In this document: positions 9,765 to 63,935 of the stretch, one piece after another
Position numbering within the stretch: position 1 is the stretch's first letter
How the letters are laid out: every line of letters begins with the position of its first letter
Assembly (NCBI RefSeq): GCF_048128805.1
Contig: NC_136006.1
Location: 8,408,179-8,472,178, forward strand
Origin: Centroberyx gerrardi
Taxonomy: Eukaryota; Chordata; Actinopteri; Beryciformes; Berycidae
Direction: 5' to 3'
Length of the DNA stretch: 64,000 nucleotides
Notes under the pieces: generated by a model
Told to the model about the DNA's origin: nothing
The model's database searches: none
Seen by the model: the letters and a program-made list of their open reading frames with translations, nothing else
Program-made: the position numbers and the translations under genes

Positions 9765-12700
9765 TCATCCAGGTTTGGTGAATGGACTGCTGGGTAATGT
9801 ACTTTCAGAGTCTTCCTGTGCAGTTGTGCCTGACAGATTGACGGAGTACGTCCGCTTTTGGATGCGCTGAATCATACGGCGGCCATAGAAGTCCCGATAG
9901 TCCTGTGGGAGCTCATCCAGAGTGTGTAGTGCCCTCTCCAGCGCCTGAAGGGCCCGAGTTGCAGCCAAGGGGTCTTTATTACCGTAGGGGTCTTTTTTAT
10001 CATAGCTTTCTGCAGGTAGATGGCGCCAGAACACATTAACTCCCACACCAAACTGCAGCGCGAGGGTGTTATGGAACCACAGAGCTGGAGGGAGAATTAC
10101 TGAATTAATAACACAAGTCTGAGGTTCAAAAAGGATGGCAGTGGGAAATATTTACACTGAACTTAGTAATGATCAAGAACATATAGCAAAAATATGCTTG
10201 ATGGCGATCTTTACTGTGATTTTGGGTATGACTGTGATGCAGCAGGTATGACAGGCGGCCAAGTACCATCGGCTTCAGAGTAAAGTACATCCTGAATGCT
10301 ATTATGGCTTTAATACAACAATTACCAAAGCATAGTTGCTATTGGAAAGGTTTTCTACATAGTAATGTACCTACATAAGAATAATAAACAACAGAGAGCA
10401 AGAAATTATCAGGCAGTCAATCCCTGGTTACCTCAAGAACCAGCATAGCAATCAAGTTAATTTTTTAAGTGTTTTATTTTGATATTAAAGTTAAAACACT
10501 TGATGGACAATCATTTCCTGAGACCCAGGAGTTTGATTTGAGAGAAGTACGTGAAAACATGCTTAGAAATGAGTGTCATAATAATGATAAGGAGTTTAAA
10601 AAAGAAGAAAGGTCCAAGGCACTCTTCTGGCAAAAAGTTTAAAAGCCTTTATTCAGATGGCTATTTCATGGTGAAATTCTTAAAAACATAGACAAAGCTT
10701 GTGCATGTTAAAATAGAACAGCCTTCTTCAGAAGAAGAAGGCTATTTGTGCCGCTACGCGTGGGTTGTAACCCAGTTCTATTTTAACATGCACAAGCTTT
10801 GTCTATGTTTTTAAGAATTTCACCATGAAATAGCCATCTGAATAAAGGCTTTTAAACTTTTTGCCAGAAGAGTGCCTTGGACCTTTCTTCTTTTTTGAAC
10901 TTTTGTGTTCCCTACCAAAGAGCACCTTCATCACACCTGTTTGAACTTCCGAGCACTCCGGACCTTTTCTTTCTGAATGATAAGGAGTTTAGTTGATTTG
11001 CTGATAGAGTTGGATGATACAGACAGTTTTCCTTACCAGGGATGAAAAGCAAATCTCCAGGCTCCAGCACACACTCAAATCTCTGTGCCTTCACAAAGTC
11101 AGGAAACTGTTTCAAGTCTGGGGAGTCGATGTCCAGGACCTCAGATTTATCACCTGATGGTCCAACAAACCACGAAAAAGGGACATTGTACTACTATACC
11201 AAGCTAGAATAATTGCCTGATGTATTTCAACATGAGAACACACTTCCTTCAGTGATACCTTCAGTTATTCTGGAGATGTGCAATATTAGTTTGGCCAAAC
11301 TGCACTTAAAATACATTTATCTGTGTATCCCAATAGTGATATTGCTAAAATAACAGCAGTTCTAGTTAGGTGTTTGTCATGTTTCAAATTCCATACTGCA
11401 TATTATCTACTAAATAGTACGCCATTAAAAAAAGACAGAAAAACCATCACATTCATCCCAATAAATGACACAAATCATTTCAATATCTGCACTTGGTATT
11501 ACATTTCTAAATGTTCTAAACTAATATATTCAAACTGCCCTGTACATAGAAATCAGTATGAGCATTCAAACACACAGCCACTGTCATTTTTCCAAATACC
11601 GGTGCTTCTTACCTGACAGGTAGAGGTGCAATGCATCCTGGGGGCTGTAGAGAACCACGCGCTTCCTCCCAGTCACCTGAGCCAGCAGGTTATCCATCAC
11701 CTGAACAAATAAGCACACAGACCAGGTAGAAGAGGGAGAGACGGTCAGTTATTTCAAAAGCTTCATTTTCCATCAGACAGGAACCGGAATAAAACTGTTT
11801 TTATTTGGACTCGGGGTCTTTCTATCTTCTGGGCCATCTTGCCACTCCAAACACCATTTCACCAAACATGCCAACACTCACATCATAGTGTGTCCACAGC
11901 TGCAGACCACAGGAGCTGATACGGAAGACACTGGAGAAAAACTGATCAGGTTCAAAGAACTGTGGGATATGGAAATCCTCTGCCAGGTCAGGAAACTGTT
12001 TACTCAGATCAGCAGGTTCCTGCGGGAGAGGAGGTACTTGTGTTATAAATCATTTTGACATTTAAACACCCAATCCAGAACGGGTGTCATGCGCCTCCTG
12101 TTGACTCACTGCTGGCTGTGCTTCTGTTTTTATATCATTATCATTTTTTTTTTTTCCCCACTTTATCTTATGAATCTACAAATGAGTTTACTGTTTGCAA
12201 ACGCTGAACCTGTATTTTGAGTTGCAGCATGATCTTAAAGTTACAAAAAGATTATGTGCCATCAGCAAGTACTATTTAATAGCAGATGCACTCAAACGTT
12301 TCTATGGTATACTGAGATATTTGACGTGATCATAGAATACTACACACAACCTCATATAATACTCTGCAGGTTTAGTATGTAAGATGGAGTCTTCTAGATA
12401 CCTTTCGAACGTCCTCTCCCAGGGATCGCAGATAATAGCTCTCATCCTGATACAAAACAACACATTGGATCAGTACAGAGTTTTGTGTCATCAAATAAAA
12501 ATAGCATACAGTAGCCTATAAACTACATAACATCATTTCAAGATGGGTCTTACTTACCTCACACAGGAAGAAATCAGAGTGTTTTTCTTCAGATGCCCTT
12601 TTCACAAATTCATTAAATGGCAGAGTCCTATGAATAATGAGAGGTACCTGATGAAGAGGAGTACCTATTTGGGTGTGTGTGAGTGTGAGAGAGCGAGAGA

Positions 12701-13581
12701 TAGAGAGAGACTCACTCACCTGTACGCAAAGTTTTTGTGAAGGAAGTCCATCTGCGGCACAGTAGATACATGGACCTTGACTTCCTTGTCACCTCCTTTC
12801 TGTCCAAGGTATTCAACGGTCCACTTCTCCAGGCACGGTCCAAGATTCACGCCTCTCAACACAGCTGGTCGTCGCTTTAAAATTTTATTGAAATAGAATA
12901 AATTGCTGCTTCCTCGTGGCAGCAGGTAGAATGCTGGGGGGCAGCCCAGATAACGTCCTGTTCTTTTGTATGGCGAATGGCGAGAACGTCACACCAATCT
13001 ATTTTAAAAATCTGGCAATTTATATGGTCTTGTTCCGTGGCAAATGTAATGTAATAGGACATAACTTAAGACACTGTACGAATTATTAGGATATTATTCG
13101 ATTCGGCAAGCAGCAATTTATTCTATTTCAATAAAATTTAAAATTTTAGAATTGGTTCACCTGTTATTCCCACAATCTTTTCCCACCAAATTACACAGCA
13201 GAGGCCGCTAGCGAGCAATAATCAATTCAAAATTTTTTAGATTTTATGAAAATTAAGTGCTGCTTTATACATCACTTCTATGCCGAATTTACCAGCAGAC
13301 GCCAATGATTTACAAAATGTCTTAAGTCGTTTTATAGCTTATATGTACATTTGCGGAGAAGCAAGGCAATTTTAAAGTGCCAGGTTTTTTAATGCACTTC
13401 GGCATGCATCCTCCATACGAGAACGGCTAGCAGGGGCTAGCATTTGAAGAACTGACAACTTGCAAAGGAAGACCAACGTCAGGTAGCTGCTTTATCTTAC
13501 CTTTGGATAAATCTCTCGCACAAAAACGTCCCTGTCTACTTCGGTGAATATCGGCACAACGACCTTTTCCTGGAGCTCCAT
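9765..13581 (-). CDS. tyw5: TYW5, JmjC tRNA wybutosine-synthesizing protein 5 (complete)
   Basis: TYW5 is an Fe(II)/2-oxoglutarate JmjC dioxygenase that hydroxylates wybutosine precursors at position 37 of tRNA-Phe. Coding exons in transcription order on the minus strand: 13581-13501, 12874-12720, 12627-12558, 12446-12402, 12019-11882, 11700-11613, 11153-11037, 10084-9765. All borders are GT/AG, and the sum is 1014 bases (337 residues; human is 315 as I recall). The iron-binding triad is visible: His161 and Asp163 in WTHYD at the end of exon 5, and His236 in ALWFHN at the start of exon 8. These sit one residue later than the human ligands as I recall them. Other conserved strings are [54 protein letters not shown] and YGNKDP. 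The start was chosen at 13581 (MELQEKVV), read in frame into the conserved [11 protein letters not shown] segment. The gene is tail-to-tail with LRRFIP1 and head-to-head with MAIP1. Confidence 0.95.
10599..10975. mobile_element. Palindromic insertion with 16-bp target duplication
   Basis: A long near-perfect inverted repeat has arms at about 10599-10723 and 10775-10896; GCAAAAAGTTTAAAAGCC pairs with GGCTTTTAAACTTTTTGC. The spacer contains CTTCTTCAGAAGAAGAAGG and CGCTACGCGTGGG. The right side carries about 80 further bases outside the palindrome. The 16-base word AATGATAAGGAGTTTA occurs at 10583-10598 and again at 10976-10991, immediately flanking the insert, as expected for a target-site duplication. 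It lies in the last intron of TYW5. Family not identified. Confidence 0.75.
12876..13145. mobile_element. Inverted-repeat element abutting TYW5 exon 2 acceptor
   Basis: The arms at about 12876-12912 and 13107-13145 are complementary over about 36 bases; TTGAAATAGAATAAATTGC pairs with GCAATTTATTCTATTTCAA. They enclose about 195 bases of unrelated sequence. The left end touches the minus-strand splice acceptor of TYW5 exon 2 (exon border at 12874), so the last bases of TYW5 intron 1 are made of the repeat arm. See the matching finding. Confidence 0.65.
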
Positions 13582-13901
13582 TTAACATGATTTAATTCAA
13601 GACTTTGACAGCAGTGAAACCAGATGCAAACAGCTCCCCAACTTACAGCAGGTGTCACATTGTTTACCTTCCCCACATTAGCAACAAATGCGAGTAAAAG
13701 TAGAGTATAAAAACTGTATAGCCTATTGAATTGAAAATTATATATTCTTTCATGAATAATAAAAAATAACACCACTAACGTTATCTTAGCGATTTGGTGT
13801 AGCACAACTTTACATCTTTTGTAAACATCTAGTTTGTTCCCCGTCGGAAGATAGAAGTAGATGGACAAAAAAAAAAAAAAAAAAGGTATAAGAGAAAAAA
13901 G
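13582..13901. promoter_or_regulatory. Shared bidirectional promoter region TYW5/MAIP1
   Basis: The start codons of TYW5 (minus, 13581) and MAIP1 (plus, 13902) are only about 320 bases apart and divergent, so one region must hold both promoters. It contains an A-tract at 13867-13884 and, over the MAIP1 start codon, AAGATGGCG at 13899-13907, which resembles the YY1 site found at many TATA-less mitochondrial-gene promoters. No TATA box is obvious. The same head-to-head pair exists in human, as I recall. Confidence 0.65.
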
Positions 13902-39370: not shown

Positions 39371-39609
39371 GCTTTAAGTAACTGAACACCAAACACAAAT
39401 CTGTGTTAAGCCTGACATCTAATGGAAAAAAAGCATGCTGCTGAAATTGCCATCTGCTATTGGCTGATCTTTGGTGCCAGGTGATGTCACCACCATCACC
39501 TGGCACCAAAGATCAGCCAATAGCAGATGGAATTTCAATATCATGCTTTTTACCATTAGATATCAGACTTAACACAGATTTGGGTTTGGTGTTTAGTTTC
39601 TCTTTAAGC
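39371..39609. mobile_element. Near-perfect palindrome with TTAA ends
   Basis: The arms of about 115 bases are complementary around a centre near 39490: ATCTGCTATTGGCTGATC pairs with GATCAGCCAATAGCAGAT, and GGTGCCAGGTGATG with CATCACCTGGCACC. The tips read GCTTTAA and TTTAAGC, so TTAA is present at both ends. Foldback or MITE type inside the presumed PGAP1 3' UTR. Confidence 0.7.

Positions 39610-51363: not shown

Positions 51364-63935
<12,572 letters not shown>

Follow-up and report, generated by a model that had tools for sequence, protein, structure and literature searches.

The TYW5 gene and the boundaries of intron 1

The window analyzed here, a 64-kb stretch of Centroberyx gerrardi DNA, carries TYW5 on its minus strand, with the exons placed by reading frames. 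The spliced product has 337 amino acids and matches PDB 3al5 over 308 residues, gap-free, with 478 bits; the database name of this entry is JmjC domain-containing protein C2orf60, and we take it to be human TYW5. The coding part of exon 1 (13501..13581, minus strand), aligned to 3al5 from residue 7, ends in IYPK. It is followed by the phase 0 intron 1 of 626 nt (12875..13500, minus strand; GTAAGA...TTTTAAAG) and by exon 2 (12720..12874, minus strand; RRPAVLRG...), which was placed by the frames and the alignment to 3al5. At the exon 1/2 junction, which this alignment backs, YPK|RRPAVL stands opposite YPQRKPLVL of 3al5 without a gap. On the minus strand the acceptor of intron 1 reads CAATAAAATTTTAAAG|CGACG, the first base of exon 2 being 12874. 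We also observed that TYW5 (13581) and a plus strand ORF from 13902, by human gene order presumably MAIP1/C2orf47, are arranged head to head, with about 320 bp between their starts.

An inverted repeat at the exon 2 border

As judged from sequence and protein homology, an inverted repeat abuts this well-supported acceptor. Its arms, one adjoining exon 2 (12876..12911, plus strand) and one distal to it (13108..13143, minus strand), are 36 nt long, 97% complementary and separated by 196 nt. The sole mismatch is the pair 12879/13140, with three further matching bases beyond it, and the perfect arms are 12880-12911 and 13108-13139. On the gene strand the arm adjoining exon 2 holds a pyrimidine stretch, a TTTAT branch-point word and an AATAAA. 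The element 12880-13139 makes up 260 of the 626 nt of intron 1, with the GT donor about 360 nt off, and it has the terminal inverted repeats expected of a MITE.

The preliminary description had drawn the element as 12876-13145, ending at the exon 2 border, and had taken the last intron bases to be the terminal repeat itself. The 36-nt repeat is real, but the perfect match stops at 12880/13139, and TAAAG (12879-12875), the final five bases of intron 1, lies outside the perfect arm, which supplies the sequence upstream.

A search of the 64-kb window with a 23-mer of the arm, allowing up to 3 mismatches, returned two places only, both exact, compared to 0.00 expected (100 shuffles). The window has 70 inverted pairs, and among the 25 longest only four besides the pair in intron 1 are not CA/TG repeats. 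A large near-perfect palindrome is found at 10593-10901 in TYW5 intron 7 (127-nt arms, 99%, with a 55-nt loop); blastn detected no similarity between it and the element of intron 1. At 39377-39601 we observed MITE-like nested inverted repeats, with 55-nt arms (89%) around 42-nt arms (95%) and a 7-nt loop, and at 61911-62451 an inverted repeat, not a simple repeat, with 95-nt arms (77%) set 351 nt apart.

A direct repeat at the element ends and the inferred empty site

Both ends of the element are spanned, in register, by a 12-nt direct repeat, TTTAAAATTTTA, with one copy on the exon side (12876..12887, plus strand), which holds the target-site duplication, if any, and the other at 13137..13148 (plus strand). 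The preliminary description does not mention this direct repeat. When random flanks were placed around the same element, a direct repeat of 12 was reached in 90 of 20000 trials. The TTTAAA core of the direct repeat is its own reverse complement, and if the element is taken to end at its perfect arms, the flanks have just one base in common. Because this core is self-complementary, the length (up to 12) and the place of a target duplication cannot be fixed, and a part of the apparent inverted repeat may itself be target duplication.

The joined flanks make an intron of 365 nt ending CCAATTCTAAAATTTTAAAG|CGACG, and every choice of duplication within the direct repeat gives this same sequence. 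On the premise that the direct repeat contains a target duplication, TAAAATTTTAAAG|CGACG was already the end of the empty site. The last 13 bases of the intron are identical in the inferred empty site and in the present intron 1; given insertion with target duplication, these bases, the AG included, would therefore predate the element, and the acceptor AG was probably not made by it.

Diverged inverted homology within intron 1

Intron 1 also contains an older inverted homology, a diverged inverted copy of part of the element that is absent from the preliminary description. The core of its first arm is at 13003..13157 (plus strand), extended by nhmmer to about 12968, and the core of its second arm is at 13220..13392 (minus strand), extended by nhmmer to 13424 and weak or not significant beyond that point toward exon 1. 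The two related pieces lie tail to tail with 62 bp between them. The alignment of 12884-13157 with the inverse of 13511-13220 scored 162.5, compared to a mean of 86.4 in shuffles (sd 8.8, max 118.4, n=1000). As controls, the opposite strand gave 100.0 for 12884-13157, and 780 comparisons with stretches elsewhere in the window gave no score above 115.9, those starting near 12400-13700 being omitted. The interior of the homology scored 103.6 against a shuffle mean of 50.3 (sd 6.6, max 76.7, n=1000). The signal was clear in both of its parts, with 85.1 for 13000-13107 vs 13262-13395 (shuffle max 59.4, n=3000) and 55.6 for 13108-13160 vs 13215-13265 (shuffle max 48.2, n=3000). Aligned with MAFFT, the whole units were identical at 148 of 252 positions.

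Searches of the 64 kb with nhmmer agreed in both directions. The element alone found 13424-13223 with an E of 4.7e-7 (next place outside intron 1, E 0.74), and the inverted unit alone found 12968-13154 with an E of 4.6e-5 (next place outside intron 1, E 1.8). The signal was not clear in the outer halves of the homology, the score of the whole outer half being reached in 211 of 3000 shuffles; for smaller outer parts the counts ran from 19 of 2000 (13470-13500, at the exon-1 end) up to 837 of 3000, with 142 of 3000 among the wider tests. A homology reaching both splice sites (12884-13157 / 13511-13220) was considered and dropped, given the wider outer tests (211, 837 and 142 of 3000) and the ends of the nhmmer matches at 12968 and 13424. 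For the inverted copy itself, the test for arms was matched by 1082 of 2000 shuffles, so it shows none. Homology past the arm into the flank, at 13140-13160, was matched by 82 of 3000 shuffles, and by 1262 of 2000 in a less well placed test.

Searches for other copies

No other copy of the element was detected in the 64-kb window outside intron 1, either by the pattern of the arm 23-mer, by blastn or by nhmmer. The blastn search of the window with 12701-13300 at E up to 1 gave no copy; as the diverged copy in intron 1 escaped it too, it is blind to old copies. With a two-row profile, the best nhmmer place in the window outside intron 1 had an E of 1.2. Exact searches gave 0 hits for a 23-mer in viral_contigs and 0 for a 25-mer in genome_contigs, collections of viruses, bacteria and archaea in which misses say little. 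For the exon 2 peptide, 191 stretches of viral_contigs fitted the pattern and none was a relative. An Rfam scan of 12500-13700 (E up to 1) yielded three matches, all below the gathering score and none within intron 1. Among the literature matches listed, the titles and abstract openings held no account of the TYW5 intron 1 locus.

Acceptor signals upstream of the AG

The fraction of pyrimidines at positions -20..-4 is 0.53 in intron 1, compared to 0.71, 0.59, 0.71, 0.71, 0.53 and 0.76 in introns 2-7 and 0.59 in the empty site. For positions -30..-4 the fractions are 0.59 in intron 1, 0.59-0.70 in introns 2-7 and 0.44 in the empty site. A pyrimidine stretch, TTTATTCTATTTC (12890..12902, minus strand; 11 of 13), occupies acceptor positions -28..-16 and holds the word TTTAT with its A at -25. 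This word, located within the arm, is the sole match to yUnAy among the final 60 bases of intron 1; the last 55 bases of the inferred empty site have none. The nearest upstream AG ends 31 bases before the end of intron 1. The base at -3 is A, which is unusual at this acceptor position.

The view that the acceptor is without a normal pyrimidine tract was overstated, given that its value at -20..-4 equals that of intron 6, even if it is below the other five (0.59-0.76), and that the 11/13 stretch is present at -28..-16. The acceptor had further been described as built on a transposon end. On the joined-flank reading this would not hold for the AG and would apply only to the sequence upstream of it. 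As to the choice offered between a co-opted end and a duplicated native intron end, the AG fits duplication better, with the same last 13 bases in both forms, while the upstream signals may fit co-option in part. As the arm is the present source of the pyrimidine stretch and of the yUnAy word, some co-option may have taken place. In its upstream part the inferred ancestral acceptor seems weak, and either later changes weakened it or the exon-side arm is the older one.

Predicted RNA folding and the AATAAA word

We predicted the fold of the RNA made of exon 1, intron 1 and exon 2, with the far arm shuffled (10 shuffles) as the control. The perfect arms had a predicted mean pairing probability of 0.97 and a duplex energy of -40.7 kcal/mol. 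The predicted probability of being unpaired was 0.00 for 12904-12892, compared to 0.53 with the far arm shuffled, and 0.20 for the last 15 bases of intron 1, compared to 0.77 in the control; for 13160-13141, beyond the far arm, it was 0.52. The bases of TAAAG had unpaired values of 0.77, 0.56, 0.57, 0.34 and 0.24, and therefore the AG is predicted to be only partly open. Pairing of the arms is thus predicted to mask the pyrimidine stretch, with TAAAG remaining partly accessible. A site predicted to be paired need not be blocked, because the 5' splice site (13502-13495), which is used, is also predicted to be paired (mean unpaired 0.14). The whole intron 1 fold had an energy of -151.8, compared to -136.9 (sd 5.8) in 60 shuffles. 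The lowest-energy fold is built on the 32-bp arms and not on the two inverted units.

One could extend this to a structure-gated 3' splice site, where intron 1 is largely a fold-back of inverted copies whose last stem covers branch point and pyrimidine tract but not the AG end, and use of the acceptor depends on RNA folding, e.g. on temperature or helicases. We consider such gating improbable.

An AATAAA does start 15 bases before exon 2, as the preliminary description had it, and the word is not rare here, with 55 occurrences on the plus and 69 on the minus strand of the 64-kb window (124 in total). On the gene strand intron 1 has two, both in the repeat arms. That description had also suggested premature polyadenylation, i.e. 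that the arm AATAAA truncates TYW5 after exon 1. A CA follows the word in exon 2, with TGTGTTG coming within about 35 bases, and a layout of AATAAA, CA and then TGTGTTG fits a poly(A) site. On the other hand, the word is common on both strands of the window, and the copy in the arm is predicted to be fully paired. Nothing supports its use, and we regard an intronic poly(A) signal as very unlikely.

Origin of the inverted repeat

The most likely explanation, held with moderate confidence, is a MITE-like insert that duplicated its target and so preserved the AG. A short non-autonomous element of about 260 bp would have ended up on the exon 2 side of TYW5 intron 1, in the final bases preceding the AG. 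The insertion would have duplicated an A/T-rich target inside TTTAAAATTTTA, which would have restored the bases beside exon 2 and left the native AG in use. Since then the repeat arm would have supplied the sequence just upstream of the AG, including the pyrimidine stretch and the consensus-like branch-point word. In the RNA the arms could form a stem some 32 bp long, hiding the pyrimidine stretch with the TAAAG end partly open. Splicing probably works either with the stem unformed, on signals borne by the arm, or across the looped-out stem, on those of the old flank. The analysis shows the junction (through protein homology), the inverted and direct repeats and the sequence given by the joined flanks, and it predicts the pairing; the transposon identity, insertion rather than local copying and the way in which splicing copes are what we infer from these. 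In favor of the insert are the 36-nt arms, which with one mismatch are far beyond chance, and the direct repeat at the ends (90/20000). Against it, repetition across the genome, the defining mark of a transposon, was unseen in the 64-kb window, where the sole homologue lies 62 bp off within intron 1. The target duplication that cannot be placed also counts against it, as does the poor upstream region of the inferred ancestral acceptor (pyrimidines 0.44 at -30..-4).

Because a diverged inverted copy is present in intron 1 and none other was found in the 64 kb, local inverted duplication without any transposon is a serious rival, which we think possible and less probable than the insert. An old event would have produced 13003-13157 / 13220-13392, and a later event of the template-switch type would have copied one arm (about 36 nt) as its reverse complement, with the exon 2 border as either destination or source. 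Template switching is reported to yield perfect reverse-complement repeats (PMC8794818), and the only homologue found in the window is the inverted neighbor in the same intron (nhmmer E 4.7e-7). However, two adjacent MITE copies in an intron would look the same, there is only a weak hint that the homology continues from the arm into the flank (82/3000; 1262/2000 in the less well placed test), and the 12-nt direct repeat at both ends fits insertion better. Clustering with no copy found elsewhere in the window speaks for inverse duplication, while the direct repeat speaks for two MITE copies landing together. It is also conceivable, though we find it unlikely, that the original end of the intron, with its pyrimidine stretch, survives in the arm beside exon 2 and was copied to give the far arm, so that the acceptor has nothing new. 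The better upstream region of the present acceptor (0.59 vs 0.44 at -30..-4) and its yUnAy word, absent from the empty site, would agree with this, but the empty site does not fall behind at -20..-4 (0.59 vs 0.53) and the direct repeat is left unexplained.

Relation to known systems and significance

The element is like a MITE in size (about 260 bp), in the terminal inverted repeats of 32-36 nt, in the short A/T-rich direct repeat at the ends and in the location in a gene intron. The element differs from MITEs in having no second intact copy in the 64-kb window, a superfamily that is not assignable and a duplication that cannot be placed. Introners are DNA transposons that create introns, and some of their families bring along one splice site and recruit the other (PMC9860276). 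The intron 1 element resembles the introners of that text in its inverted repeats and putative target duplication beside a splice site; unlike them, it would lie inside a larger intron and supply neither the GT nor, on the joined-flank reading, the AG. An introner constitutes the intron and bears the splice sites in or at its termini, and this is not the case here. In yeast, a hairpin in the segment from branch point to AG reportedly makes the effective distance shorter (PMC12350175). The stem just upstream of the AG in intron 1 could likewise bring an upstream branch point close; in contrast to the hairpins of that text, it is only predicted, from one sequence, and holds the likely pyrimidine tract itself.

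As a single locus, the observation is modest alone. If the reading is right, it would be a clear-cut example from nature in which an inverted-repeat insert a few bases from the AG did not destroy the gene, which would survive because the duplicated target kept the acceptor. It would also provide a testable pair, the same AG with different upstream signals, with and without the 32-bp stem. A structure-gated 3' splice site, if true, would be one in a vertebrate gene for a tRNA-modifying enzyme.
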